A stretch of DNA of 64,000 nt, taken from Armatimonadota bacterium. GTDB taxonomy: Bacteria; Armatimonadota; Chthonomonadetes; Chthonomonadales; Chthonomonadaceae. How positions within the stretch are numbered: position 1 is the first letter of the stretch; the number at the start of each line of letters is the position of its first letter. The translations under genes and the position numbers were made by a program. Under the pieces are notes generated by a model, which saw only the letters and a list, made by a program, of their open reading frames with translations, was not told the DNA's origin and searched no databases. This document shows positions 1-14,915 of the stretch, piece after piece. The DNA lies in the NCBI GenBank assembly GCA_028871815.1, contig JAGWMJ010000008.1, positions 124,001 through 188,000 on the forward strand, in the 5' to 3' direction.

Positions 1-533
1 CCTCCACCGCGCAGACCGGTCCTCCCGCGAATGTGGTGGACTACCTCAAGTTTCTCAAAGGCGTTGAACGGCGCAAGGAGGCATTGATCCGTAAGGAGAC
101 CGGCGATGCCTTGTTGATGCTGGATAACGTCAAGGCGCTTTCGGGCTCGATCGATGACAGCACATACAACAAAACCTTTCAGGGCGTATCCGGCAATACA
201 ACATCCATGGCGGATGATTGGAACTCGCTGACGCAGTACTTCAACAGCGTTCCCCCACCCGTTGCGTGTCAGCAGCTTCATGATAGGTACTATGACCACC
301 TTGGCAAAATCCAGGGCATGATGGCGGAGGTACAGGACGCACTGGGCAAAGTGGGATCCAACGCACCCGACGCCATTCATGAGCTCTCCAACATGCAGGG
401 CAAGGCCTCGGCGGATGCCGACACGGCCATCCAGAAGGCCGATGACGCGCTTGCCGCTGTCTGCAGCGAGTATCAGATCCCGAAGGATTTCTCGGTCCGC
501 GGCGACGGCGGAGCGAGCAGTATTCTGCAGTAA
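1..533 (+). CDS. Hypothetical protein, 5' end outside the window
   Basis: The reading frame is open from the first bases of the window to a TAA ending at 533, so the true start lies upstream; a GTG at 33 is only an internal candidate. The visible part (about 177 residues) is rich in charged residues and alanine and looks mostly helical, with a probable coiled segment around Gln/Met/Ala-rich stretches and two Cys. No catalytic motif or family signature was recognised. It is followed by a repeat-rich, gene-free stretch, so nothing in the context gives a function. Confidence 0.6.
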   Translation, partial: STAQTGPPANVVDYLKFLKGVERRKEALIRKETGDALLMLDNVKALSGSIDDSTYNKTFQGVSGNTTSMADDWNSLTQYFNSVPPPVACQQLHDRYYDHLGKIQGMMAEVQDALGKVGSNAPDAIHELSNMQGKASADADTAIQKADDALAAVCSEYQIPKDFSVRGDGGASSILQ

Positions 534-589
534 ACCCGCAGCGTTGAGGCTGTTTGGCGAGCTCCGCATGACGACGTAACGGCGCGCCC

Positions 590-1000
590 CGGGCAGGCGC
601 CCACCAAATGGGACCAATGCGACATATAGGACATATAGGTTCGCGCACGCGTTGTCAGCAAGTGGAATGGTTCCGGCTTTGCCCCCGGGCTGTGCGCCAG
701 GCGCAGATTCCGGCTACCGCATATGTCTCATATGTCCCATTGGTCGCATTTTCAGCAGGCGTTCCGCGGTGCCATCGCGTTTGGCTGGGGTACGCGCCCA
801 CCAGATGCGACATATAGGTTCCCGCACACGTGCCCGGCAAGCGGAGTAGCGGCGCCCGGGCTGTGCGCCAGGCTTCGGTTCCGGTGCCGCATATGTCTCA
901 TATGTCCCATTGGTCGCATTTTCAGCAGACGTTCCGCGGTGCCATCGCGATCGGCTGGGGTACGCGCCAACCACATGGGACCAATGCGACATATAGGAGG
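590..1000. repeat. Tandem unit of 170-196 bp built on nine-base-phased inverted arms
   Basis: The boundary string cgcgcc(c/a)acca recurs near 597, 793 and 963, giving unit lengths of about 196 and 170 bp. Each unit has a plus arm (ATGGGACCA-ATGCGACAT-ATAGGACAT, 606-639, shorter at 803-818 and 972-997) and a minus arm (CATATGTCT-CATATGTCC-CATTGGTCG, 719-752 and 894-927). The arms are phased every nine bases and are near reverse complements: about 28 of 33 positions match for 606-639 against 719-752. Transcripts could fold into long imperfect hairpins. The flanking sequence (gctgtgcgccaggc, ttttcagca, gttccgcggtgccatcgcg) is also repeated. No coding sequence is credible here. Confidence 0.85.
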
Positions 1001-1103
1001 ATGACCACCGGCGACACGGTGGATGGTGCGGCTGAGACGCCGGCAATAGCGATGCCGACCGGCCGAAGCCGCGGGCTTGAGCCTGCCCGGCTGCCCGTTC
1101 GGG

Positions 1104-1109
1104 TATAAT
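1104..1109 (+). promoter_or_regulatory. Putative -10 element of the hopanoid/RND operon
   Basis: A perfect TATAAT inside gggtataatcgcg lies 44 bases before the hpnH ATG. No convincing -35 at 17 bp was found (ttgagc at 1077 is 21 bp away). The same GGTATAATC context occurs before the 15011 gene and upstream of actA, which supports it being a real element. Confidence 0.5.
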
Positions 1110-1152
1110 CGCGCCATTCCCGGCGGTCGCTGCGGTTCGGCGAGAGCACCTC

Positions 1153-2154
1153 ATGAGATATCCCATTGGCTTTACTCTAACTCAGGCGCGCCATCGCTCC
1201 AGGATGGAGCGCTCCGGCCAGCAGCGGTACCCTACCGTGCTGATGCTCGAGCCGCTGTACACCTGCAACCTGGCCTGCATCGGGTGCGCGGTGGAGCGCC
1301 ATACCGGCAAGCTGAAGGACCGGATGACGCTGGAGCAGTGCTTCAAGGCTGTGGATGACTGCGGCGCTCCCATAATCAACCTGTGCGGAGGCGAGCCGAC
1401 CCTCTACCCGGAGCTGCCGCAGTTGATCGAGGGGCTTATCCAGCGCGGCAAGTACATCATTCTTTGTACCAACGCCCTGAAACTGGATACCAAGGTTTTC
1501 GATGTCATTCCTCCAAGCTCGCATCTCTTCCTGATGATTCATCTGGACGGCATGAAGCAGACGCACGATTACGTATGCAACCGGGAGGGTGTGTTCGACA
1601 CTGCCATCAAAATGATCAAGGGCGCCCGGAAGCGCGGTTATCTCACGTACATCAACACCACGGTCTTCAAGGAGACCCAGGTGGAGGAGGTAGAGGAGAT
1701 GTGCAAACTGGTCGACAAGCTGCGCGCCAACGGAATCCTGATTTCGCCGGGTTACGAGTACGATAGCGTGGATGCCGATATCTTCCTTTCGCGCGAGCAA
1801 ATCCACGAGAAGTTCCAGACCATCCGGCAGTTTTCCAGGCGGTATAAGGTCAACGCAACCCCCATGTTTTTGGAGTTTGCCGCCGGCATTCGAGAGCTGC
1901 CATGCGCGCCCTGGTCTACCGTGAACTACACGCCAAACGGCTGGAAGGCGCCGTGCTACCTCATCGGCGAGTCGCACATCGCCACGTGGCAGGAGTTCTG
2001 GGAAAAGACCGACTGGCAGTACTGGGAATCTCGCAAGGATGCGCGCTGCAGCAACTGCAAGATGCACAGCGGATTTGAACACAGCGCGGTCAGCGAGGCG
2101 ATGAAGTCGGTGAAGGGCACGATACAGCTGACGGCATGGGCGCTCTCCAAGTAG
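1153..2154 (+). CDS. hpnH: Adenosyl-hopene transferase HpnH (radical SAM)
   Basis: HpnH is the radical SAM enzyme that adds a 5'-deoxyadenosyl group to a C30 hopene, the first step from hopene to C35 bacteriohopanepolyols. The 333-residue protein has the family N-terminus (MRYPIGFTL), the CNLACIGC cluster motif (CxxxCxxC, residues about 38-45) that binds the SAM-linked 4Fe-4S cluster, and the following GGEP motif of radical SAM barrels. Length matches the family. The ATG at 1153 gives the expected N-terminus although its ribosome site is weak. It heads a same-strand run with hpnA, ispH and hpnG, which fits a hopanoid side-chain role. No squalene-hopene cyclase gene is in the window. Confidence 0.92.
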   Translation: MRYPIGFTLTQARHRSRMERSGQQRYPTVLMLEPLYTCNLACIGCAVERHTGKLKDRMTLEQCFKAVDDCGAPIINLCGGEPTLYPELPQLIEGLIQRGKYIILCTNALKLDTKVFDVIPPSSHLFLMIHLDGMKQTHDYVCNREGVFDTAIKMIKGARKRGYLTYINTTVFKETQVEEVEEMCKLVDKLRANGILISPGYEYDSVDADIFLSREQIHEKFQTIRQFSRRYKVNATPMFLEFAAGIRELPCAPWSTVNYTPNGWKAPCYLIGESHIATWQEFWEKTDWQYWESRKDARCSNCKMHSGFEHSAVSEAMKSVKGTIQLTAWALSK

Positions 2155-2173
2155 CCCACGAAACGCCGTCGCG

Positions 2174-3196
2174 TTGAGTTCCGGCGAGGCCGATACCGCC
2201 CTGGTAACCGGGGTTACAGGCTTTCTCGGCTTCCATGTGGCGCAGCTTCTGCTGGAACGGCCCGGCGTGCAGGTGCGGGCATTGGCACGGGCTTCCAGCA
2301 ACCGTGCCCATCTGGACCTGCTTGCCTGCGACCGCTTTCAACCGGTCATCGGCGACCTGAACGACCGCGACTCGCTGCGCAAAGCTCTGTCTGGATGCCG
2401 GCGTCTTTACCACGTCGCCGCCGACTACCGCCTCTGGTCGCGTGATCCACGCGAGCTTTACCGCTCCAATGTAGATGGCACGCGCAACGTGCTCCAGGCG
2501 GCCGCAGATTGTGGCGTGGAACGTGTGGTGTACACCAGCACGGTCGGCGCGCTGGGCCGCACCAAAAACGGATCGCCGGCGGATGAAGATACGCCGGTAT
2601 CGCTTGAGGATATGACCGGCCACTACAAGCGCTCCAAATACCTCGCGGAGGAAGTGGCCCGCGAATACGCGGAACGCGGTTTGAACGTGGTGATCACCAA
2701 CCCCAGCACGCCGGTGGGCGAGCACGATATCAAACCCACGCCGACCGGCCGCATCATACTCGACCTGCTGAACGGTGGTATGCCCGCATTCGTGGACACG
2801 TGGTTGAACCTGATTGACGTGCGTGATGCGGCTCGGGGCACACTTCTCGCCGGCGATAGAGGTGCGGCGGGCCGGCGTTACATTCTCGGGGCTGAGAACG
2901 TATCACTGGCAGAGATGCTGCGTATGGTTGCCGTGGCGGCCGGTCGCAAGCCGCCGAGGATCCGGCTGCCGTGGCGCGTGGCGTGGGCTGCGGTGGGCGC
3001 CGAAAACCTGCTGGTTGCCGGATTGCTGCGGCGCGAGCCCAGGCACCCGTTGGAAGGCGTGCAGATGGCGCGCAAACCGATGGTGTTTGATAACACCCGG
3101 GCGGTGCGTGAACTGGGACTGGAGTGCGCGCCCGTGAGCTCAGCAATGGCGCGTGCGGTATCATGGTTTCGCGAGAACGGCATGGCGCGAGGGTAA
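2174..3196 (+). CDS. hpnA: Hopanoid-associated sugar epimerase HpnA-like, NAD(P)-dependent
   Basis: An extended short-chain dehydrogenase/epimerase of 340 residues. The N-terminal glycine motif (TGVTGFLG) binds NAD(P), YTSTVGALG supplies the catalytic Ser/Thr region, and YKRSK carries the YxxxK pair. The best start is a TTG at 2174, 19 bases after hpnH, because no ATG or GTG precedes the Rossmann motif in frame; no clear ribosome site is visible, suggesting translational coupling. HpnA proteins are known by association with hopanoid loci and their exact substrate is not established. Position directly after hpnH supports this assignment over a generic NAD-dependent epimerase. Confidence 0.82.
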   Translation: MSSGEADTALVTGVTGFLGFHVAQLLLERPGVQVRALARASSNRAHLDLLACDRFQPVIGDLNDRDSLRKALSGCRRLYHVAADYRLWSRDPRELYRSNVDGTRNVLQAAADCGVERVVYTSTVGALGRTKNGSPADEDTPVSLEDMTGHYKRSKYLAEEVAREYAERGLNVVITNPSTPVGEHDIKPTPTGRIILDLLNGGMPAFVDTWLNLIDVRDAARGTLLAGDRGAAGRRYILGAENVSLAEMLRMVAVAAGRKPPRIRLPWRVAWAAVGAENLLVAGLLRREPRHPLEGVQMARKPMVFDNTRAVRELGLECAPVSSAMARAVSWFRENGMARG

Positions 3197-3223
3197 CCCG
3201 CATTATCCGGTTTGGAGAGTTGA

Positions 3224-4135
3224 ATGACGCCAGAAAGCAAGAACGGCGCTGTCGACGCACGGCGCACGGTTGAGATGGCCGACGAAGTGGGATTCTGCTT
3301 CGGCGTGAAGCGCGCCATCAACCTCACTCGGGATGCACTTGATGAACGCAAGGAGGTGTTCATCCTCGGTGACCTTGTGCATAACAAGGCCGTTACCGAC
3401 GAGCTGCAGGCCAAAGGGCTGCAGCGGCTGGATGAGTACGATGATCAGCACCGTGGCACGATGGTTATCCGTGCCCACGGGTTGCCGCAAGAGAAGATTG
3501 AAGAAGCGCAGAAGCGTGGAATCGAGGTTGTAAACGCTACCTGTCCGATCGTGCTGCGGGCGCAGGAAGCAGCACAGGAGCTTGAGAGGCTCGGCAGGCA
3601 GGTGGTGATTATCGGCGACAAGAACCACGCCGAGATCAAGGGCATCCTCGGAGCTCTTCAGAAGCCCGCGCTCGTCATCGACAGCGTGGAGGAGCTTTAC
3701 TCCTACAAGGAGACCTACCTGCTGCGCCGCAAGGTTGGCGTGATCTTTCAGACGACACACGCATTGGAGTTGTGCCGCGCCATCCTGAACGAACTGGTGT
3801 TCATGTGTAAGGATATTCAGATTATCAACACGATCTGCCGGCCGGTACGGAATCGCCAGGATGATGCCGTTGAACTGGCCAGTCGAGTGGAGCTGATGAT
3901 CGTGGTCGGTTCGCGCACCAGCGCAAACACCACCGAGCTCGCCGCGCTGTGCAAACACCACAATCCCAACACGGTCCAGGTGCAAGGCGCCGCAGAGTTG
4001 ACCGATGAAATGATGGGCGACTGGCGCCATGTAGGCATCGCCTCCGGACTTTCCACACCGGAGGACCTGGTGGAGGAGGTGCGCCTGAAGGTGCTGCGCA
4101 GTGCGCCCGTCGGGCCGGATGGCGTCCGGGCGTAG
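3224..4135 (+). CDS. ispH: 4-hydroxy-3-methylbut-2-enyl diphosphate reductase IspH/LytB
   Basis: Last enzyme of the MEP pathway, reducing HMBPP to IPP and DMAPP with a 4Fe-4S cluster. The three cluster cysteines are visible at about C25 (GFCFGVKRAI), C107 (NATCPIV) and C205 (NTICRPVRNRQ), with spacing close to E. coli IspH. The conserved GSRTSANT and SGLSTPEDL segments near the C-terminus are also present. At 303 residues the length is normal. A ggagag site lies before the ATG. It sits between hpnA and hpnG, so isoprenoid supply and hopanoid modification would be transcribed together. Confidence 0.95.
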   Translation: MTPESKNGAVDARRTVEMADEVGFCFGVKRAINLTRDALDERKEVFILGDLVHNKAVTDELQAKGLQRLDEYDDQHRGTMVIRAHGLPQEKIEEAQKRGIEVVNATCPIVLRAQEAAQELERLGRQVVIIGDKNHAEIKGILGALQKPALVIDSVEELYSYKETYLLRRKVGVIFQTTHALELCRAILNELVFMCKDIQIINTICRPVRNRQDDAVELASRVELMIVVGSRTSANTTELAALCKHHNPNTVQVQGAAELTDEMMGDWRHVGIASGLSTPEDLVEEVRLKVLRSAPVGPDGVRA

Positions 4136-4856
4136 CGGGCCGGAAGCGAGCCAATTCGCCTCCATCGTTCTCTTTGCACTGCCTCGTGAGGCCGTTCCAC
4201 TACGAAAGACGATCGAGGCGGGCAGGCACGGCTCTGGCGTCAGCATCGCGGTATCGGGTATAGGAGCTGCAAACAGCCGCCTGGCGGCGGAACGGTTACT
4301 GCGCGGGGCCGGCACGCAGCCCGTGCAGCTTGTGATCGCCGGCTTTGCCGGCGCGCTCACGCCGGCCATTGCCCCGGGTGACGTGATGGTAGCGACGCGT
4401 GTCATGTGCGTGACGGGTGGACCCGAGTTGCTGCCCGATAACAGGCTGATGGAGGCGGCGAGCTGGGCGCCGACGCAGCAAGCCGCCCATCGCGGCGCGC
4501 TGATCAGTGCGCCCGTTGTGCTGACCAGCAAAGACGAGAAGCAGCGGCTGCACGCCTCTTCGGACGCAGATGCCGTCGATATGGAGTCGTATGCCGCAGC
4601 CTGCGCGGCCGTTGATGGGGGTGTTCCGTGGCTCTGTGTCCGGGCGATCACGGATCGGTGTGATGAGAACCTTCCAATCGATTTCAACCGACTTGGCCCG
4701 GCAGCCTCGTCGCCATCGGCCGTCGGCCGGTTTGCCGCCGTTCGTCCGCGGTCGTGGCCCGGACTCGTGCTGCTTGGCCGGAACTCAAGCCGGGCCGCGC
4801 GGAGCCTTGCTGTTGCCATTCACGCCCTGCTCATTCACCTGCAGGCCGCTGAGTAG
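4119..4856 (+). CDS. hpnG: Hopanoid-associated nucleosidase/phosphorylase HpnG-like
   Basis: Nucleoside phosphorylase-fold protein of about 245 residues. HpnG removes adenine from adenosylhopane, the product of HpnH, on the way to bacteriohopanetetrol. Visible features are VSGIGAANSRLAAERLL and VIAGFAGAL in the N-terminal half and DAVDMESYAAACAA, the Met-Glu motif that binds ribose in this superfamily, followed by RAITDRCDE. The ATG at 4119 overlaps the ispH end by 17 bases; a GTG at 4101 is an alternative. Without the hopanoid neighbours it could only be called an MTA/SAH nucleosidase-like protein. Confidence 0.82.
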   Translation: MASGRSGPEASQFASIVLFALPREAVPLRKTIEAGRHGSGVSIAVSGIGAANSRLAAERLLRGAGTQPVQLVIAGFAGALTPAIAPGDVMVATRVMCVTGGPELLPDNRLMEAASWAPTQQAAHRGALISAPVVLTSKDEKQRLHASSDADAVDMESYAAACAAVDGGVPWLCVRAITDRCDENLPIDFNRLGPAASSPSAVGRFAAVRPRSWPGLVLLGRNSSRAARSLAVAIHALLIHLQAAE

Positions 4857-4865
4857 CGGGCCGGA

Positions 4866-6221
4866 ATGAACGCGTCACATGCGCCCGGACGCTTGGGACG
4901 GTGGTTATGGATGCTCGTGCTCGCCTGCGCCGTGAGCGCTCATGCGACGCAGCAGCCGACGCCCGGCGCAATGAAGATATCCGACCTCGTCACCGAAGCT
5001 CTCGCTCAAGCGCCCGAGCCGCGGGAATATCGCTATGCTTTTCTGGCGGGAGTCACGCGGCTCGAACCGGAGCGCCCCACGGCCTCTCCCAGCCTGCGGG
5101 CCGACCTGCGCGGCGGTATCCAAACGCCTTCACTCCACTTTCCGCGTCCGGACGAGGCGCCGGCCACGGTTCTCTCCTCCGACGCCAGCAGCTTCAGTCT
5201 CACCTACCGGCAGCCGGTCTATCGCGCTGGACTGCGCCCGGCCGCGGCACGGTACCGAGCTGATGAAATGGTGCTGCAGCTGGAGTACCGTCAGGCCTTG
5301 CTGGATTTTGCCTGGAGCGTGAGATCCGCATGCATCGGCCGCCTGGAGGCGGACGACGCGCTGGCGGTTGCTGAAGACTCTTTGGAGGGCGCTAAACGGT
5401 ACGAGAAGCTGGTGCACGGACAGATTGCGGCCGGAGCCGCCCGGCCGATTGACGCTCAAACGGCGGCGGCTCAAACTGCCGAGGCCCGTTCGGCTCTGGA
5501 GAGCGCCAGATCGGCTGCGCTGCTGGCACGCCTGAATCTGAACCGGCTTCTTGGCCGGCCAATCTCCAGCGCGAGCCGTATACTGCCACCGCAGCCGGTT
5601 GGCGCCCCGCCTTCCGAACCCGACGACGCCATAAAGATGGGTGAAAGCAGCAGCACCGAACTGGCCATTCTGAACTGCGAAATCACCGCTGCGCGCGCCG
5701 GGGAGAGCCTTGCACATCTCCAGGCGGCGCCGGCGCTGGATTTTGAGGCCCGGGTTGTGGAGCAGGCGCCAACCGCGTTGGCGCCTGAGAACTACGCCGC
5801 CGCTTTCCTGGAGCTATCGGCGCCGCTGCTTGGCGGCAGCGCCGCGCGAAGCGATGCAAAGGCGGCACGGGAGGAAGCCGGCCGCCTGGCTGCAGCCCGG
5901 GACGCTGCGTTGGCCGGAGTGGCCGTTGACATAACCTCGGCGTGGCGCCGCTATGTGGAAGCATGGGCGCAGCAGGACCTGGCTAAACGCAGGCAGTCGG
6001 CGGCCGACGCGGAACTGAAGCTGGATGAAGCTGCTTACGCCATCGGGCGCTCCTCGGCTGTAGATGTTGAATCGGCGCGGCGCGAGGCGCGCAGGGCGGC
6101 TATGCAGACGGTGCAGGCTCGATGGCAGGTTGTGCGCGCAAACTGGGATTTGGCGTACCACGAGGGCGCCGCGAGCGCCGCGATCGACCGATTGGCGCCG
6201 GCTGACGCCCCAGGCCGATGA
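4866..6221 (+). CDS. TolC-family outer-membrane efflux protein
   Basis: 451 residues beginning with a signal peptide (basic start, WLWMLVLACAVSAHA core). The rest is long alternating helical and beta segments with Ala/Glu/Arg-rich coiled-coil stretches in two halves, the layout of the outer-membrane efflux protein family. The barrel part would sit in the outer membrane and the helical tunnel in the periplasm. It starts 9 bases after hpnG and overlaps the adaptor gene by 4 bases, so it forms the exit duct of the tripartite pump encoded downstream. Its presence shows the cell has an outer membrane. Confidence 0.85.
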   Translation: MNASHAPGRLGRWLWMLVLACAVSAHATQQPTPGAMKISDLVTEALAQAPEPREYRYAFLAGVTRLEPERPTASPSLRADLRGGIQTPSLHFPRPDEAPATVLSSDASSFSLTYRQPVYRAGLRPAAARYRADEMVLQLEYRQALLDFAWSVRSACIGRLEADDALAVAEDSLEGAKRYEKLVHGQIAAGAARPIDAQTAAAQTAEARSALESARSAALLARLNLNRLLGRPISSASRILPPQPVGAPPSEPDDAIKMGESSSTELAILNCEITAARAGESLAHLQAAPALDFEARVVEQAPTALAPENYAAAFLELSAPLLGGSAARSDAKAAREEAGRLAAARDAALAGVAVDITSAWRRYVEAWAQQDLAKRRQSAADAELKLDEAAYAIGRSSAVDVESARREARRAAMQTVQARWQVVRANWDLAYHEGAASAAIDRLAPADAPGR

Positions 6222-7513
6222 AACGCTCCTCCACTGTCGCCCTGATCAGCGCCCTTGCGGTGGCGCTCTCCGGCGCAGCCTGTCAGCGGCGAGATGCTGC
6301 CACGCAACCTCCCGCTTCGCCCGCTTCGTCACACCCGCTCCGGCTGCAGGAAAGCCCCACCCTGCCAACGCAGCCAATGCCGTCATTGGAGGCCGGCGCG
6401 GTGACGCTGGTCGGCATCGTTCAGCCGCAGCGTCAGGCCCAGATCAGTCTGCCGGCGCCGGCACGGGTTGTGCAGGTGCTGGTGTCGGCCGGAGATAGCG
6501 TGCGGCAGGGATCCCTGCTGGCGCAAATCGACTCTTCCGCTGCGCTCGCGCAGCTCAACTCAGCCCGAGCCGCCGCCGACTCCGCCCGTGCGGCGTGGCG
6601 GAAAGCCGCGGCCGGGGCGGCGGCCGAGAACAACCGGGCCGTACGAGCGGTGCAGCAGGCAAACGACGCCGCTGCCGAGGCCGCACTCGGCCAGCGCAAG
6701 GCGGCGCTCGCCGCCAACGCAGCGCTGCTCGATCAGCAGCAGGAGACTGCGGCCGCACGGGAAGGTTTGGCTAAAGCGAACGTCGCCGTGACTGCGGCGC
6801 ACCACGAAGTCAATCAACTGCAACAATTGGCCGGCCTGGGCGGCGTTTCCCGCAACGATCTTGAAGCAGCTCAGGCAAAGCTGCAGGCCGCACTGGCCAA
6901 TCGCGCGGCGGCGCGAATCGCCGTTGCACGCGCCATGGCGGGCGCCCCACGCGTACCCGGCGGCTATCCCGCCGCCATCGCACAAACCGCTTTGGCGCTC
7001 GCCCGTAGGCAGACCGCTACCGCGCGGCAGGCTGTTCAACAGGCCGAGGCGCAGCGGGCATCGGCATCTGAGACCGGCGCGGCCGACGTCAGCGCCGCTG
7101 CAGCGCAGATGCGCCAGGCCGATGCCGGAGTTCAGGCTGCAGAGGCGCAGCTGAACCAGACCGACCTTCGATCGCCGATCGCAGGCGTGGTAACGGTAGT
7201 GGCCGTGCATGCCGGCGAGACGCCGCAACCCGGTACGCCGATTATCAGCGTGGAGTCGCCGAGCGGCGCAGACCTGCTCGCGCTTGTGCCGGCCCGGCAG
7301 ATGTCCCTGCTCCATACCGGCATGTCGGCCGTGGTTCAGGTGGAAACGGAACCCGGACGGCGGTACGCCGCGCGCATCACGCAGATATCGGGCGTAGCCC
7401 AACCGGACGGGCGCACGTTTCGAGTGCAGCTGCACCTGATCCACGGCGCGCTGCGACCGGCGCAGACAGCGCACATTCGCATCCCCGTGCGAACCGCGAG
7501 CGCGGGCGGCTAG
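6218..7513 (+). CDS. RND efflux membrane-fusion (adaptor) protein
   Basis: 431 residues with an N-terminal export signal ending at Cys (LSGAAC), a loose lipobox, so possibly a lipoprotein anchored to the inner membrane. The order is lipoyl half-motif (APARVVQVLVSAGDSV), a very long Ala-rich helical hairpin (about residues 100-300), the second lipoyl half (DLRSPIAGVVTVVAVHAGE) and C-terminal beta-barrel segments. This is the HlyD/AcrA-type layout linking pump to TolC. It starts with an ATGA overlap with the TolC gene and ends 6 bases before the pump gene. Confidence 0.87.
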   Translation: MKRSSTVALISALAVALSGAACQRRDAATQPPASPASSHPLRLQESPTLPTQPMPSLEAGAVTLVGIVQPQRQAQISLPAPARVVQVLVSAGDSVRQGSLLAQIDSSAALAQLNSARAAADSARAAWRKAAAGAAAENNRAVRAVQQANDAAAEAALGQRKAALAANAALLDQQQETAAAREGLAKANVAVTAAHHEVNQLQQLAGLGGVSRNDLEAAQAKLQAALANRAAARIAVARAMAGAPRVPGGYPAAIAQTALALARRQTATARQAVQQAEAQRASASETGAADVSAAAAQMRQADAGVQAAEAQLNQTDLRSPIAGVVTVVAVHAGETPQPGTPIISVESPSGADLLALVPARQMSLLHTGMSAVVQVETEPGRRYAARITQISGVAQPDGRTFRVQLHLIHGALRPAQTAHIRIPVRTASAGG

Positions 7514-7519
7514 CCGCTT

Positions 7520-10500
7520 ATGTGGTTTACCCGGCTGGCGATCAACCGGCCCATCCTCATCTGGATGGCGGTTGCAGCGATAATGGTACTCGGTATCGAA
7601 GCCCGGCTACGGCTGCCGGTTGAGTTGAACCCACGCGTCGATATACCGACCATCACCGTTACAACGGCCTATCCCGGCGCGGGGCCGCCAGAAATCGACA
7701 GTCAGGTCAGCAAGCCGATACAGGATGCCGTCTCCACGGTTGCCGGCGTGAAGGACGTGACGACGCGCTCTGAAGCAAACGTCTCGGTGATCAGCATCGA
7801 CTTTCACCTGGGAACCGATCTGGACTCGGCGCTGGCCAATGTAAGAGCGCGCCTGGATGCAGTGCGAGCCCAGCTTCCGGCCGAGTGTCGCGCGCCGGTA
7901 GTGGCCAAGCTGGATATCAACGCTCTGCCGGTTCTGTATCTGGGCTTTACCAGCCGCACGCTCTCACTGCGCCAGTTGTGGAACGCGGCCGATAACGTGG
8001 TAAAGCCGAGGCTGGAACGCATTGACGGCGTAGCGGACGTTCAGGTGATGGGCGGCGATCAACAGGAGATTCGCGTCTCGGTTGACCCGGCCCGGTTGGC
8101 ACAATTTGGATTGACCATAGAGGATGTGGTCAACGCGCTCAAGGCGGCCGGCCACGATATCTCCGGAGGCGGAATCACCTATGGCAGCCGCGAGACAGAC
8201 GTGCGACTCGCAGGCGCATTCTCGTCGCTGGATGCCATACGCAGCACGCAGATACCCGGTTCGTTTCCACAGTCGGCGGCTGCGGGCGTTCCCGAAGAGG
8301 GCATGCCGCCAACGCCGCCGGTTACCGTTGCCGATGTGGCTACCGTAACCGATACGGTTGCGCCACGCACCGAGATCAGCCGTATCAACGGACTGCCGGG
8401 CGTAAGCGTGGCGATCTCCAAGTCCCCCGGTTCCAACGCCGTGCAGGTGGTCCACAACGTGGAAGCGGCGCTGAAGGACGCCGGGCCGGCGATGGCCGGC
8501 GTGGATCAGGTGGTGCTGCGCGACGACTCGCAGACCGTGCGCGACGCCTTGACGGACGTGAACACCAGCCTCATCCTGGGCGCCGTGCTGGCCATGTTGG
8601 TCGTGCTGCTCTTTTTGCACAGCCTGCGCGGAACCGTGATCGTATCCCTGGCGATACCGCTGTGCATTGTGGCCACCTTCCTGGTTATGTGGGCGGTGAG
8701 CTTCACGCTGAACCAGATGACGCTGCTGGCGCTGTCGCTCTCTGTAGGAATTCTGCTGGACGACTCGATCGTCATCCTGGAGAGCATCACCCGGCACCTG
8801 CGAAATGGCGAAACGCCCCGCGAGGCTGCGTTCAACGGCAGGACGGAGATCGGCTTTGCCGACATCACGACCACATTGGTGGATGTTGTAGTATTTGTGC
8901 CCATAGCATTTATGGGTGGCATTGTGGGCGGATTCTTTCGCGAGTTTGGCCTTACGGTGGCGGCCGCCACGCTTTTCTCACTGGCCGTGAGCTTCTCCCT
9001 GACGCCAATGCTTGCGTCGCGGTGGTACCGTCAGGGCGAGAAGCTGGAGGCCCGCGCGGGCATCTTTGCGCCGTTGGAGCATCTGTACCAACGGCTGGAG
9101 GCCGGCTACCGCAGCGTGATCGTGCTCGCGCTGAGGCGGCGACCGATCGTGATTCTCACCTGTGGCGGCGCCATCGTTCTGGTATTCGCGCTGGCGTACG
9201 GGCGCCTGGATACCGAGTTGATCCCCGGCACCGATCAGGGCCAGATTGCGGTCAACATTCAGATGCCGCCCGGCGCCAGTTTGGCGGCTACCGATCAGTG
9301 TGCCCGTGCCGTCGAGAATCAACTGTCAAGGATGCCGGAGGTCGCGGCGACGGTCACAAACGTTGGAAGGATTCTCGGCGGCTTCGGGTCGCTGCCGCAG
9401 GATGGAGCCGAGTATGCACAGATTGGGCTGCGCCTGCGCCCACGTTTGGGCATCTGGCAGCGGCTGGTGTATCTTGGAAGGCAAACGGGCGCTCGCCTGC
9501 GAAGCGATATCGAAGTGGCCAGGAGGGCTCGCATCATAGCGGCCCCGATTGCTACAGCATTTGGAGCGAATATTACCACAGTGCCCATCCGCTCGGAGGA
9601 GGGTGCAATCGCGCCGGTAGAGATTCAGATTCGCGGCTCCAGCGTGGCGCAAATCACCGATTTTGCGGCTGCAATTCGCCAAAAGCTGGCGGCGATGCCG
9701 GGCGTCCTGGATCCGGCCGTATCGGTGCGCAGCGGGCGGCCCGAAGTGGTAGCGCTCATCGACCGTGAACGCGCGGCGGCGCTGGGTGTAGCTCCCGCGG
9801 TCGCCGGCGCCAACCTGCACGACTCGGTGGCCGGAAACACCGACTCCATCTACCGCCAGAACGGCGTTGATGTGCCGATTCGCGTTCAGGTGCACGGCAT
9901 GCAGGTCAACAACCCGAGAGTGGTGGGCAACGTGAATGTCGGCGTAGACTCGTCAGGCGCACCGATCGCGCTGGCCGATATCGCAACGCTTGAGCTCCGC
10001 AGCGCGCCAACCCGGATCGACAGCCTCAACGGACTCCGGCAGGTTACCGTTACGGCCAACCTTGCGGCAACAGCGCATATCGGCGCCATCGAGACACAGG
10101 TCAACCGCGCGCTCGCCGGGATGCCCCACGCGGGCATCGACGTCACGTGGGGAGGGGACGCGGAGACGATCAACGAAAACATCGTTCCGTTCATCAGCGC
10201 AATCCTGTTGGCCATTGCACTGGTCTATATGGTGATGGCGGCGCTGTTCAACTCACTGGGCACGCCATTTGTGATCATGCTGACGCTGCCGATGGCGCTG
10301 GTTGGGGCGGTCGGCGCGTTGGTTCTCACGGGACAGACGCTTTCGCTGGTGGCCGGCATCGGCATCATCATGCTGATTGGCCTTATGGGGCGCAACGCCA
10401 TATTATTGCTGGATTACACCAACACGCTTCGGGCGCGCGGGATGGCGCGAAACGATGCGATAGTGGCGGCTGGCGCCACCCGCCTGCGACCCATATTGAT

Positions 10501-10714
10501 GACGACCACGGCCACGATAGCGGGCATGCTTCCTGTGGCGCTGCGGATCGGACGAGCATCGGAGGTACGAGCGCCTATGGCCATTGTTGTTATTGGTGGC
10601 CTGTTGGTGTCAACACTGCTCACTCTGGTGGTGATACCGGTGCTGTACAGCGTGCTGGAGGATTACCTGCCGCGTTCACGGCGTGATTTGGTGCGCCGGA
10701 AGCCTACAGAATAG
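7520..10714 (+). CDS. RND-family efflux pump, AcrB/HAE1 type
   Basis: A 1064-residue inner-membrane proton-driven transporter. It has the family N-terminus (FTRLAINRPILIWM), a first periplasmic domain with AYPGAGPPEIDSQV, a central TM block with the proton-relay DD pair (VGILLDDSIVILES, about residues 414-415), a second periplasmic domain and the C-terminal TM block. The lysine of AcrB TM10 (K940) is replaced by Arg about residue 958 in LMGRNAILLLDYTN. Together with the two upstream genes it forms a complete tripartite pump. Its place at the end of a hopanoid operon raises the possibility that it moves hopanoids or lipids rather than drugs, but the sequence alone cannot show this. Confidence 0.93.
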   Translation: MWFTRLAINRPILIWMAVAAIMVLGIEARLRLPVELNPRVDIPTITVTTAYPGAGPPEIDSQVSKPIQDAVSTVAGVKDVTTRSEANVSVISIDFHLGTDLDSALANVRARLDAVRAQLPAECRAPVVAKLDINALPVLYLGFTSRTLSLRQLWNAADNVVKPRLERIDGVADVQVMGGDQQEIRVSVDPARLAQFGLTIEDVVNALKAAGHDISGGGITYGSRETDVRLAGAFSSLDAIRSTQIPGSFPQSAAAGVPEEGMPPTPPVTVADVATVTDTVAPRTEISRINGLPGVSVAISKSPGSNAVQVVHNVEAALKDAGPAMAGVDQVVLRDDSQTVRDALTDVNTSLILGAVLAMLVVLLFLHSLRGTVIVSLAIPLCIVATFLVMWAVSFTLNQMTLLALSLSVGILLDDSIVILESITRHLRNGETPREAAFNGRTEIGFADITTTLVDVVVFVPIAFMGGIVGGFFREFGLTVAAATLFSLAVSFSLTPMLASRWYRQGEKLEARAGIFAPLEHLYQRLEAGYRSVIVLALRRRPIVILTCGGAIVLVFALAYGRLDTELIPGTDQGQIAVNIQMPPGASLAATDQCARAVENQLSRMPEVAATVTNVGRILGGFGSLPQDGAEYAQIGLRLRPRLGIWQRLVYLGRQTGARLRSDIEVARRARIIAAPIATAFGANITTVPIRSEEGAIAPVEIQIRGSSVAQITDFAAAIRQKLAAMPGVLDPAVSVRSGRPEVVALIDRERAAALGVAPAVAGANLHDSVAGNTDSIYRQNGVDVPIRVQVHGMQVNNPRVVGNVNVGVDSSGAPIALADIATLELRSAPTRIDSLNGLRQVTVTANLAATAHIGAIETQVNRALAGMPHAGIDVTWGGDAETINENIVPFISAILLAIALVYMVMAALFNSLGTPFVIMLTLPMALVGAVGALVLTGQTLSLVAGIGIIMLIGLMGRNAILLLDYTNTLRARGMARNDAIVAAGATRLRPILMTTTATIAGMLPVALRIGRASEVRAPMAIVVIGGLLVSTLLTLVVIPVLYSVLEDYLPRSRRDLVRRKPTE

Positions 10715-10717
10715 GCG

Positions 10718-11656
10718 CTAATCCTGCTGCGGCAAGAAGCGGTCGTACAGCAAGCCCCACCGCAGACCGCGGTCACTCACCTGCAGCGAGTCGCACCCTA
10801 GCCAGTTCATTGCCTCGCGCACCATTATCGCGCCGCCGACGATGATGCCGGCCCGCGCCGGGTCCAAACCCTTCAAGGCGCGGCGCTCTTCCAGACGCAT
10901 GCTGCTGAGCCGCGCGATGGTGGTATCCAGCGCCTCTACGGTGATACGGTGCCCGTGGATCTTGCGCGCCCCACGACTGGCCGGACCATCTATGGCCGCG
11001 AGGCTTGTAAGCGTTCCGCCAACGCCAATGAGCGGCACGGGTTCGGAAAGTACAGCGGGCAGTGAGGCCTGCTCCATCGCCTGCGCCGCCGCGGCCGATG
11101 CTATCTGAAGCTCCGCCGGCGCCGGGGGGTCGGTTCTGAGGTAGTTGTCCGTGAGCTTGATCGCGCCCATTGGGATGCTGGCGCGCGAGATCGGCTCCTG
11201 GCCCCTTCCGCCAGCAACAACCTCGGTGCTTCCGCCGCCAACGTCAATCATTCTAAGGCCGTTGAGTGCTGCCCATGCCGGATCGCGCCGAACGGCGAGA
11301 AACGACAGGCGCGCCTCTTCCACTCCCGGAATTGCCGTTACGGTTACACCACATTCCGCGCTCACGGCGGCCAGAAAGCTGCGGCCGTTATGCGCCTCTC
11401 GCGCGGCGGCCGTGGCCACGGCGGCAACCTCTTCAACGCCGGCCTGGTCGCATGCCATCCGAAACTGGCAGATGGCTGCCATTGTACGCTCCATGGCTGC
11501 CGCATCCAGAACGCCGGTAGCGCCCATTCCGGCGCCTAGACGCGTTACCATTACGCGCTGCTCCAATGGCTCCAGAGCGGTAGGAGTGATGCGGGCGATG
11601 AGGAGTTTTACACTGTTGGTGCCAACGTCAAGCGCGGCTACGGTGCGATTCGCCAT
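10718..11656 (-). CDS. Ppx/GppA-family exopolyphosphatase/pppGpp phosphohydrolase
   Basis: 312 residues of the ASKHA fold: phosphate-1 motif ALDVGTNSVKLLIARI at the start, a central MIDVGGGSTEVV phosphate-2 motif, and IGVGGTLTSLAAI near the C-terminus. It hydrolyses the terminal phosphate of polyphosphate or pppGpp; which substrate is used cannot be told. At about 310 residues it is the short single-domain form without the C-terminal HD extension. The ATG at 11656 is preferred to the adjacent TTG at 11659. It lies 3 bases after the TrkA-like gene and converges with the RND gene with only 3 bases between stops and no visible terminator. Confidence 0.9.
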   Translation of the reverse strand: MANRTVAALDVGTNSVKLLIARITPTALEPLEQRVMVTRLGAGMGATGVLDAAAMERTMAAICQFRMACDQAGVEEVAAVATAAAREAHNGRSFLAAVSAECGVTVTAIPGVEEARLSFLAVRRDPAWAALNGLRMIDVGGGSTEVVAGGRGQEPISRASIPMGAIKLTDNYLRTDPPAPAELQIASAAAAQAMEQASLPAVLSEPVPLIGVGGTLTSLAAIDGPASRGARKIHGHRITVEALDTTIARLSSMRLEERRALKGLDPARAGIIVGGAIMVREAMNWLGCDSLQVSDRGLRWGLLYDRFLPQQD

Positions 11657-11659
11657 CAA

Positions 11660-12334
11660 TCAGCTGCCGCTCCGCACCGTTTCTGCGAAGAGGTCACGCA
11701 GTTCATGTTCCAGCTCGGCATTTACCAGGGCAATAACGCTGTCGCCGGCGCGCACAACGGTCTCGGGCGACGGAAGTACCGCACGCGTATCGCGAATAAC
11801 GCACACGATGAGCGCGTCCTTGGGCAGTGCGAGGTCGGCGACCGGGCGATCGGCGACGGGCGACCGGTTGCTGATCTCAATCTCAACGATCTCGATATTA
11901 CCGCCTTGCAGCGCCGCGAGGGGTATCACCTCTCCGCCACCCACTTCCTGTTCGATCAGGTTGTAGATGATTTTGGTGGAGCTGACGGTGGCGTCGATAC
12001 CCAGCTCCTTGAAGAGCACTTCATTCCGTGGATCGTTCACGCGTGAGATGGTGCGCGGTACGCGATGCTCCATTTTCGCCATCTGGCAAACGACCAGGTT
12101 ATCGTCGTCGCTGCCCGTGACGGCTACTACCACATCGGCGCGGGCGAAGCCGGCATCCTGCTGCTGTGCCACTTCACAACCATCACCCTGCATCACGATC
12201 TCACCCAACTCTTCCGAGACGGTGCGGTACCGTGGGCGATCCTTTTCCAGCAGCAGCACTTCGTGGTGCGCTGCGGCCAGAGTTTTGGCCAGATAGTAAC
12301 CGACATTGCCGGCTCCGACAATAATCACATACAT
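11660..12334 (-). CDS. RCK-type potassium regulatory protein (TrkA-N + TrkA-C)
   Basis: 224-residue cytoplasmic regulator of a K+ uptake or channel system. Residues 1-130 are an RCK_N Rossmann domain with the NAD motif VIIVGAGNVGYYLAKTL and acidic pair LLEKD; the C-terminal third (IEISNRSPVADRPVADL to the end) is the RCK_C ligand-binding domain. It is half the size of E. coli TrkA, like KtrA/CglK-type proteins. It follows a second RCK gene after 3 bases. No TrkH/KtrB membrane subunit is in the window. Confidence 0.88.
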   Translation of the reverse strand: MYVIIVGAGNVGYYLAKTLAAAHHEVLLLEKDRPRYRTVSEELGEIVMQGDGCEVAQQQDAGFARADVVVAVTGSDDDNLVVCQMAKMEHRVPRTISRVNDPRNEVLFKELGIDATVSSTKIIYNLIEQEVGGGEVIPLAALQGGNIEIVEIEISNRSPVADRPVADLALPKDALIVCVIRDTRAVLPSPETVVRAGDSVIALVNAELEHELRDLFAETVRSGS

Positions 12335-12337
12335 GGT

Positions 12338-12802
12338 CTATTGGGCGTGCGAGGTGTAGTTCTTGACGTAATCGGCGGAGAAATCGCTGGTGAGGCCCCA
12401 GTCATCGGTTTCGACGAACTGCTTCAGAAGGCCGCTTGCGATTGTGGTGCTGCAAAGCGTAATGATACCCATCTGGCGGTACCGATCGGCACGGATCGGG
12501 TCGTAGATTCGCGCGATCACCTTTCCGATTTTGAACCGGTAGCGGGCGATCTGCGCCGCCATGATGTTGCGGTTATCGCCCTGCGTGACCGCAATAAACA
12601 CGTCGGCCGCGGGCACGCCGGCCGCGCGCATCACATCTTCATCAATGCCGTTGCCGATAACGCGGCGGCCCTTGTAGCGCGCGCCTAAACGGCGGAATGC
12701 ATCGCTCTGCTGATCGATGACGGTAACCTCGTGGCCGTCATCAAACAGCATCCGTGCAAGCGTGGATCCCACGCGGCCGCACCCGAGTATCACAACGTTC
12801 AC
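12338..12802 (-). CDS. RCK_N-only TrkA-like NAD-binding protein
   Basis: 154 residues with the Rossmann NAD motif MNVVILGCGRVGSTLARML and VTVIDQQSDAF; the RCK_C domain of the neighbour is lacking, only a short helical tail remains. The GTG start at 12802 is fixed by a strong AGGAGGT ribosome site (12811-12818) 8-9 bases upstream. It is the first gene of a three-gene minus-strand unit with the full-length RCK protein and Ppx/GppA. Two unequal RCK proteins side by side may form a hetero-oligomeric gating ring; this is inference. Confidence 0.86.
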   Translation of the reverse strand: MNVVILGCGRVGSTLARMLFDDGHEVTVIDQQSDAFRRLGARYKGRRVIGNGIDEDVMRAAGVPAADVFIAVTQGDNRNIMAAQIARYRFKIGKVIARIYDPIRADRYRQMGIITLCSTTIASGLLKQFVETDDWGLTSDFSADYVKNYTSHAQ

Positions 12803-12861
12803 GCTACCGGTACCTCCTCAGCCGCCCGCAGCCGCCACTGTTGGGCAGTGTGCTTGAGTGT

Positions 12862-12888
12862 ACTATAACGCCGCGCCTGCGCGCTCAA
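12862..12888 (-). promoter_or_regulatory. Putative promoter of the RCK/Ppx unit
   Basis: On the minus strand TTGAGC (12888-12883) and TATAGT (12867-12862) are 15 bp apart, about 60 bases before the GTG start. The spacing is shorter than optimal, so the assignment is tentative. The divergent 164-bp gap also serves the isochorismatase gene. Confidence 0.4.
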
Positions 12889-12966
12889 CCCCTGCCAAAA
12901 CGGCGGTGATTACCGTATCCTTAGTCCGGATGTTCTTCGCAAGCGGCATGCATTCAGGAGGTTGTC

Positions 12967-13536
12967 ATGACGGAACCTGTTCGGGCAAAGGGACTGCTGG
13001 GCGCTGCCGGCACGGTGCTGGTTGTTGTGGATATGCAGGCGCCTTTTCTGGCGCCGATCTTCGAGCGGGAGCGTGTGGAGGCCAACGTACAACTGCTGTT
13101 GCAGTCGCTGCCGCTGTTTGGCGTGCCGGTCATGGCCACCACTCAGTATCAGGCACGCATGGGCGATACCATTCCGGCGCTGAAGGAACTGCTGCCGCCG
13201 GAAACGCCGGTGTTGGACAAACTTGCATTCAGCTGCGCCGGCAATCCGCAGTTTACTGCAACTCTGGCGGCGATGTCTCGGCGCCAGATACTGCTTTGCG
13301 GAATCGAAACGCACATCTGCGTCAGCCAGACCGCGCATGACCTGCTGGCCCTCGGCTACGAGGTTCACGTTGCCGGGGACGCCGTCTCCTCACGCGCAAA
13401 GCTGAACTGGCGGCTGGGTCTGCAGAAAATGGCGGCATCGGGGGCGGTCATCACTTCGGCAGAAGCGGCCGTATACGAGGTGATGGAACGCGCCGGCACG
13501 CCGGAGTTCAAGCGCGTCATACCCTTTGTGAAATAG
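12967..13536 (+). CDS. Isochorismatase-family cysteine hydrolase (YcaC-like)
   Basis: 189-residue alpha/beta hydrolase of the isochorismatase superfamily. The likely catalytic triad is Asp22 (VVVDMQ), Lys85 (VLDKLAFSC) and Cys118 (CGIETHICVSQT), in the canonical order. Length and the GIETHICV segment match the YcaC/nicotinamidase-like branch rather than true EntB isochorismatases; the substrate is unknown. A CAGGAGG ribosome site lies 5-6 bases before the ATG. No siderophore or NAD-salvage genes are near. Confidence 0.88.
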   Translation: MTEPVRAKGLLGAAGTVLVVVDMQAPFLAPIFERERVEANVQLLLQSLPLFGVPVMATTQYQARMGDTIPALKELLPPETPVLDKLAFSCAGNPQFTATLAAMSRRQILLCGIETHICVSQTAHDLLALGYEVHVAGDAVSSRAKLNWRLGLQKMAASGAVITSAEAAVYEVMERAGTPEFKRVIPFVK

Positions 13537-13553
13537 GTATGGAGGATCACGCC

Positions 13554-14915
13554 ATGCGCCGTGGCGACGCGGGCGACGTGGATGGTGAGCCGGCGCTTTT
13601 CGTTGAGGAGCCGGAATCCGACTTCGATGCGAGTGCCTCTGCCGGCGCGCCGCTGGCTGCGCGCATGCGGCCACGCACGCTGGACGAACTGGTCGGCCAG
13701 GAGTCGATTGCGGGAGCCGGCAGCCAGTTGCGCCGCGCCATCGAACAGGATCGCGTCTCATCGATCATCCTTTGGGGACCTCCAGGAAGCGGCAAGTCGA
13801 CCCTGGCCCGGATCGTTGCTCGCCACACGCGAGCCTGGTTTCAGGAGTACAGCGCCGTTACCACCGGCGTGGCCGATGTCCGTCGCGTTATAGCGGCTGC
13901 GGCCGAGCGGCGTCGTAAACTGGACCGGCGCACCATCCTCTTCATCGACGAGATCCATCGCTGGAACAAGGCCCAGCAAGATGCGCTGCTGCCGCATGTG
14001 GAGAGCGGCGCGATCTCGCTGATCGGCGCCACAACCGAAAATCCCTACTTCGAGATCAACGGCCCGCTTCTTTCACGGGTCCGTCTGTTCCGGCTCCAGC
14101 CGCTCACCGAACCCGATCTGCTGGCGCTGCTGAAACGGGCGATGGCCGACAAGGATCGCGGACTCGGCGCGCTTTCGCTCACTGCCAACGAGGATGCGCT
14201 CGAACACCTGGCGCGGATCGCCGGCGGCGACGCGCGTCGCGCTTTGACGGCCCTTGAAGCGGCATCGGCCGCTTGCATGACCTTGCCGGAAGCGGAAGGC
14301 CGGCTCACGCTGAAACTGGTGGAAGAGGCGGCGCAGCAGCGAGCGGCGCGATACGACCGCACCGGCGATGAGCACTACGACACGATCTCGGCATTTATCA
14401 AGAGCATCCGCGGATCGGACCCGGACGCGGCGATCTACTGGCTGGCAAAGATGCTGGATGCCGGCGAGGATATCCGGTTTATTGCGCGCCGGCTGGTGAT
14501 TTTGGCGTCGGAAGACGTGGGTAATGCCGCTCCATCCGCGCTTACCCTGGCGAATAGCGCCGCGCAGGCCGTGATGTTCGTCGGCTTGCCGGAGGCACAG
14601 TTGATTCTCGCTCACGCGACGATCTATCTGGCATGCGCGCCAAAAAGCAATCGTTGCACGCTGGCGCTAAGCGCTGCCCGGGCGGAGATCGAGTCGAACG
14701 GCGCCGGTCCGGTACCAACGGCGCTCCGCTCGTCGGGCTCCGACGGGTTGTACCTCTACCCACATGACTTCCCCGGCGCCTGGGTGGCGCAGGAGTACCT
14801 GCCGGCTATTGCCGTCGGAAAGCGTTTTTACCATCCGGGATCTGAGGGCGCGGAACTGGAGATTGGGCGAAGGCTGGAACAGCGACGAGGTAAGGCGCAT
14901 AACCCGGAGAGCTAG
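13554..14915 (+). CDS. rarA: Replication-associated recombination protein RarA/MgsA (AAA+ ATPase)
   Basis: AAA+ ATPase acting at stalled replication forks, related to clamp loaders. Visible are the Walker [10 protein letters not shown] (about residue 75), Walker [10 protein letters not shown], sensor 1 [14 protein letters not shown] and the C-terminal MgsA tetramerisation domain starting near [19 protein letters not shown]. The ATG at 13554 is preferred over 13539 because GGAGG (13541-13545) lies 8 bases before it; using 13539 would put the ribosome site inside the gene. Length 453 residues fits the family. Confidence 0.93.

Follow-up and report, generated by a model that had tools for sequence, protein, structure and literature searches.

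A conserved operon-like block of hopanoid side-chain genes and an HAE-1 tripartite pump in the Chthonomonadaceae, with hopanoid export as a candidate function

In the stretch of DNA analysed here (the window, 64 000 nt of contig JAGWMJ010000008.1), ORF listing and profile searches show seven plus-strand ORFs filling positions 1153–10714 in the order hpnH-hpnA-ispH-hpnG-OMF-MFP-RND. The window comes from a 3.68-Mb genome in 22 contigs (G000) within the Chthonomonadales (Armatimonadota), a little-studied order of soil and hot-spring bacteria that has a cultured member, Chthonomonas calidirosea. The first gene, hpnH (1153..2154, +), encodes an adenosyl-hopene transferase (TIGR03470, 346.6 bits against a cut-off of 225) of the radical SAM type, with CxxxCxxC present. 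It is followed by hpnA (2174..3196, +; TTG start), for the hopanoid-associated sugar epimerase (TIGR03466, 422 bits, cut-off 368), and by ispH/lytB (3224..4135, +), for HMBPP reductase (TIGR00216, 250.6 bits, cut-off 188; PF02401). The fourth gene (4101..4856, +) encodes a hopanoid-associated nucleoside phosphorylase (PF01048) that misses the HpnG family cut-off (TIGR03468, 99 bits versus 187); the gene is syntenic in relatives, and we treat it as a divergent HpnG, a name that comes from best family and synteny alone. Thus, of the names given in an earlier note on this DNA, hpnH, hpnA and ispH stand, all above cut-off, while hpnG stands only for a divergent member. A hopanoid side-chain gene set is present, with hpnH and hpnA above and the hpnG-like gene below cut-off, and with a squalene-hopene cyclase gene found by profile search elsewhere in the genome (C2:216297, 730 bits), unlinked to the block.

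The three remaining genes form the complete TolC/adaptor/RND set that had been claimed, each component being identified by profile: a TolC-family outer membrane factor (OMF, 4866..6221, +; PF02321, TIGR01844), which holds its position after hpnG in relatives; an RND/HlyD-type periplasmic adaptor (MFP, 6218..7513, +; PF16576/PF13437, with TIGR01730 at 94.4 against a cut-off of 94.9); and an RND permease of the HAE-1 (ACR_tran) class, related to MdtB (RND, 7520..10714, +; PF00873, 772 bits, residues 4–1046). Membership of an HAE-1 tripartite system is indicated by the adaptor (HlyD/RND_mfp) and OMF (OEP family) genes that adjoin the permease gene. The description of the permease as AcrB-like is right at the family level and wrong for its nearest solved relative, which is MdtB. 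Downstream lies a convergent ppx gene, whose end is 3 nt past the RND stop.

From the first gene to the seventh, the intergenic gaps are +19, +27, −35, +9, −4 and +6 nt. The upper end of the previously given range of −17 to +27 agrees with this, and the lower end does not: the ispH/hpnG value is −35 with the longest ORF, and −17 requires a later start. The OMF and MFP genes share a 4-nt ATGA overlap, and the 9-nt spacing between hpnG and OMF in the window is replaced by 4-nt overlaps in several other genomes. “Fused”, the word used for this arrangement in the earlier note, is inexact for separate contiguous genes in an operon-like block; the accompanying statement that there is no internal terminator is borne out, as positions 1–14000 hold eight terminator-like matches against a shuffle mean of 9.6, with no excess and none convincing within the block.

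A promoter-like extended −10 element, TATAAT in GGTATAAT, lies at 1104..1109 (+), 43 nt upstream of the hpnH ATG. The exact hexamer occurs just four times on the plus strand of the window, and never inside the block. The motif GGTA[TC][AT][AC]T precedes hpnH at 11 of 18 loci (chance expectation 0.03 in a 180-nt stretch), a count that is circular in that the motif was derived from hpnH upstream regions; it is found upstream of OMF at 0 of 18 loci, of MFP at 0 of 17 and of the operon RND at 0 of 11. A comparison of relocated with operon RND genes is less circular: a relaxed form, GGGTANNNT, lies no more than 110 nt upstream of 6 of 8 relocated RNDs and of none of the 11 RNDs in the operon (Fisher p = 0.001), with the qualifications that this form was picked after some of the sequences had been inspected and that two of the genomes are congeners. 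Because the promoter-like element stands before hpnH and none stands before OMF, MFP or the operon RND, we predict that the seven genes share one transcript. The expected co-expression of hopanoid and pump genes is well supported by the kept order, the coupling-type spacing, the single promoter-like element and the promoter-like sites at relocated RNDs, and from sequence the block is very probably a conserved operon. The region upstream of it also carries intergenic repeats with ATATGTCTCATATGTCCCATTGGTCGCATTTT-like elements (window 591–998): a 95-nt direct repeat (717–811 and 887–981, 94%) and a 41-nt repeat (591–631 and 958–998, 90%).

All seven genes are contiguous in eight Chthonomonadaceae (family f1: the window's genome, G126, G157, G154, G155, G156, G160 and G022), where G160 is counted though its RND runs past the contig end, and G154 and G155 despite a 1.5-kb insert between hpnA and ispH. 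They are also contiguous in both f3 genomes (G075 and G161) and in G021, from the distant family f20. The order-conservation check proposed in the earlier note thus has a positive outcome across f1, f3 and f20 genomes, and the hpnG/OMF junction at 4856–4866, on which that note had staked its reading, is conserved in relatives. The 1.5-kb insert is found at loci L119 and L120, in two genomes of genus g9, and the RND gene of G155 contains one in-frame TAG, which we read through. The hpnH-hpnA-ispH-hpnG part is kept in nearly all family and order relatives with sufficiently long contigs, the exceptions being G131, where hpnH alone is kept there, and G047, whose contig ends beside hpnH. OMF is the next gene 3′ of hpnG in the window, and of the 17 relatives that carry both genes, 16 show the same adjacency, the gap ranging from −4 to +95 nt; in G146, a 2.4-kb insertion separates the two. 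Six genomes (G067, G114, G108, G007, G057 and G120) retain OMF and MFP in the operon and have the RND orthologue on another contig. In the f2 genomes examined, the pump is never part of the hopanoid locus, and several of them have OMF-MFP-RND together elsewhere. The window's flanking genes (ppx, two trkA, isochorismatase and rarA) do not adjoin the operon in relatives; the block has therefore outlasted its surroundings. No hpnH, ispH or hpnG gene lies beside an RND gene outside the Armatimonadota among the more distant loci returned. Two further candidate linkages were rejected: in f17, the G015 RND adjoins recA and sigma-factor genes (named from sequence reading); in f9, hpnG is followed by squalene/phytoene synthase and amine oxidase genes in G035 and by chorismate synthase in G006.

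By its sequence, the window RND belongs to HAE-1, the drug-pump class, rather than to the HAE-3/MMPL class of HpnN, the known hopanoid transporter, in agreement with the earlier statement that HpnN is a different RND type. In a maximum-likelihood tree of 45 RNDs, the proteins of the f1, f2, f3 and f9 hopanoid makers and the operon copy of G021 form one clade (100/99), outside which fall the RNDs of non-hopanoid genomes and the second G021 copy; the RNDs of f17, also hopanoid makers and more distant (40–42%), were left out of this tree. The f19 hopanoid makers have no homologue of the window RND at E 1e-200. Since the f17 RND is more distant and f19 is without one, the clade may merely mirror the species tree; and since both HpnN and this RND are missing from the f19 makers, hopanoid synthesis can proceed with neither present. 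Related RNDs with 45–48% identity occur in Armatimonadota families without hopanoids. Across 291 genomes, homologues (E 1e-200) are found in 34 of 44 HpnH-positive and 45 of 247 HpnH-negative genomes, a difference that taxonomy confounds, and the latter figure led us to reject a strict co-occurrence of pump and hopanoids. G102, the sole f2 genome without HpnH, also lacks the RND, and G153 is HpnH-positive and RND-negative. With the family present in non-hopanoid genomes, unlinked in about half of the order and absent from f19 makers, this distribution indicates that, across the phylum, the pump is not strictly dedicated to hopanoids. A second, related RND paralogue occurs in G047, G131, G141, G075, G036 and G082; it matches the window RND at 48–51% over the first half and 37–42% over the second. 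In the non-hopanoid family f8 (loci L128–L132), the conserved order is OMF / ABC-2 ATPase / ABC-2 permease / LolA-like / MFP / RND, with the three middle genes named from sequence reading; this order could point to a lipid-related cargo there too.

Alignment places the proton-relay residues of the window RND at D414, D415 and R958, together with the conserved Arg and Thr. R958 (codon at window 10391–10393) occupies the AcrB K940 position, which is Arg in all 23 Chthonomonadales RNDs that cover the site, in the motif GLMGRNAILL. Lys is found there in f9, f20, non-hopanoid relatives, paralogues (where aligned, the second paralogue in G047 and G141 has Lys), AcrB, MdtB and MdtC. Equivalents of AcrB D407, D408, R971 and T978 are kept in the RNDs of the order, and the K940R change suggests a functional yet modified proton relay. 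The Phe cluster of the AcrB distal pocket is missing from the window RND; as MdtB is likewise without it, we rejected distal-pocket residues as a discriminator of cargo.

The earlier note had proposed searching the genome for hpnN, and the gene is absent by a search whose positive control works. The HpnN model (TIGR03480) has no match at E 1e-10 in the window's genome and none at E 1e-30 in 151 Armatimonadota genomes. The same model gives 1012 and 940 bits in two proteobacterial records bearing both hpnH and hpnN and, run as in that control, nothing in G000, G022 or G126. A weak match in the window's genome (G000:C2:189116) was rejected as SecDF by sequence. Among the Alphaproteobacteria, every predicted producer of bacteriohopanepolyols is reported to carry hpnN (PMC12583986).

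We tentatively favor a reading in which the pump carries a product of the hopanoid pathway out of the inner membrane. One operon, with its promoter immediately 5′ of hpnH, would co-express bacteriohopanepolyol side-chain assembly (hpnH, hpnG and hpnA) with a proton-driven RND-adaptor-OMF pump, and ispH would supply isoprenoid precursors to the hopanoid pathway. In these bacteria, which have no HpnN, the candidate cargo would be a bacteriohopanepolyol or an adenosyl- or ribosyl-hopane intermediate, moved from the inner membrane toward the cell surface or the outer membrane. This export reading is supported by the kept order, tight junctions, promoter pattern, HpnN absence, RND clade and precedents for triterpenoid-linked RNDs. 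It is weakened by the HAE-1 class of the permease, by the related RNDs in non-hopanoid families and the f19 makers that have neither transporter, and by the unlinked RND in f2 and six f1 genomes. A TolC-type exit, moreover, usually discharges its cargo outside the cell and not into the outer membrane, which also counts against it. Among the precedents for triterpenoid cargo are HpnN, as cited in PMC12583986 and PMC6394551, and BstA (PMC10942540). The BstA/B/C proteins were found through guilt by association and later shown to bind sterols (PMC10942540); the success of that approach makes the inference of a hopanoid cargo reasonable, while the pump class argues in the opposite direction. A stronger version, that a dedicated HAE-1 tripartite pump of the Chthonomonadales and G021 (with Arg for Lys940 in the Chthonomonadales) exports bacteriohopanepolyols as a second, independent route replacing HpnN, is on present evidence somewhat unlikely.

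The two functions proposed in the earlier note, hopanoid export and a pump needing hopanoids, both stay candidates. Hopanoid export has a close rival in a pump serving the envelope barrier, a distinct possibility in which drugs, solvents or other toxic amphiphiles are exported, and in which hopanoid-ordered membranes are either required for efflux and low permeability or enhance them. The HAE-1 class with MdtB as nearest solved relative, the same RND family in non-hopanoid Armatimonadota and the unlinked site of the RND in many relatives all fit such a pump, as does the proposal, cited in PMC5358736, that in Methylobacterium hopanoids give the outer membrane an order that serves multidrug efflux. 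It sits less well with the fixed place of OMF and MFP, which follow hpnG in all Chthonomonadaceae loci that are long enough (in G146, with OMF after the 2.4-kb insert) despite several other RND pumps in the genome (eight matches), or with an operon lacking a regulator gene, such a gene being common for drug pumps. An inherited neighborhood without functional meaning, in which an ancestral accident put the pump genes after hpnG and shared transcription then kept them in place, strikes us as improbable: the RND stands apart in f2, f9 and six f1 genomes with no sign of pump or hopanoid loss, and the pump family predates the linkage, but the block is kept amid rearranged flanks, is present in distant f20 and retains its tight overlaps. 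Two transcription units with separate promoters, hpnH-hpnG and OMF-MFP-RND, are very improbable: several f2 and f9 genomes do have the pump genes grouped on their own, but no promoter-like element precedes OMF at any of 18 loci, and the hpnG/OMF junctions are close or overlapping.

The operon offers a named, testable candidate for another hopanoid route in a phylum without HpnN; to our knowledge, HpnN is the only established means by which hopanoids reach the outer membrane. If the cargo is instead drugs, the operon would be a natural case of efflux tied genetically to membranes ordered by hopanoids. Every component belongs to a known family; new to us are the way they are combined, the conservation of this arrangement where HpnN is absent, and the K940R variant, and we found no description in the open-access literature of a complete RND tripartite pump encoded with hopanoid genes. 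The closest comparison is HpnN itself (HAE-3/MMPL RND; Rhodopseudomonas and Burkholderia), likewise an RND-superfamily gene tied to hopanoid genes, with proposed hopanoid transfer to the outer membrane; as described in PMC6394551, HpnN acts as a lone HAE-3 protein, with no adaptor or outer membrane channel, whereas the present locus encodes a full HAE-1 tripartite set. MdtABC and AcrAB-TolC (HAE-1) share the RND fold family, adaptor and OMF with the window pump, which differs in its hopanoid-biosynthesis operon partner and in Arg for K940. The Methylococcus sterol transporters BstA/BstB/BstC resemble it in an RND protein with conserved linkage to triterpenoid (sterol) genes, but BstA is MMPL-type and has other periplasmic and outer-membrane-associated partners (PMC10942540). 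In AmeABCD of Castellaniella, too, the genes for an entire RND export channel accompany terpene genes, and terpene tolerance depends on the channel, but this monoterpene efflux system has an HAE-3 permease and two periplasmic proteins and lies in a terpene degradation island (PMC6394551).
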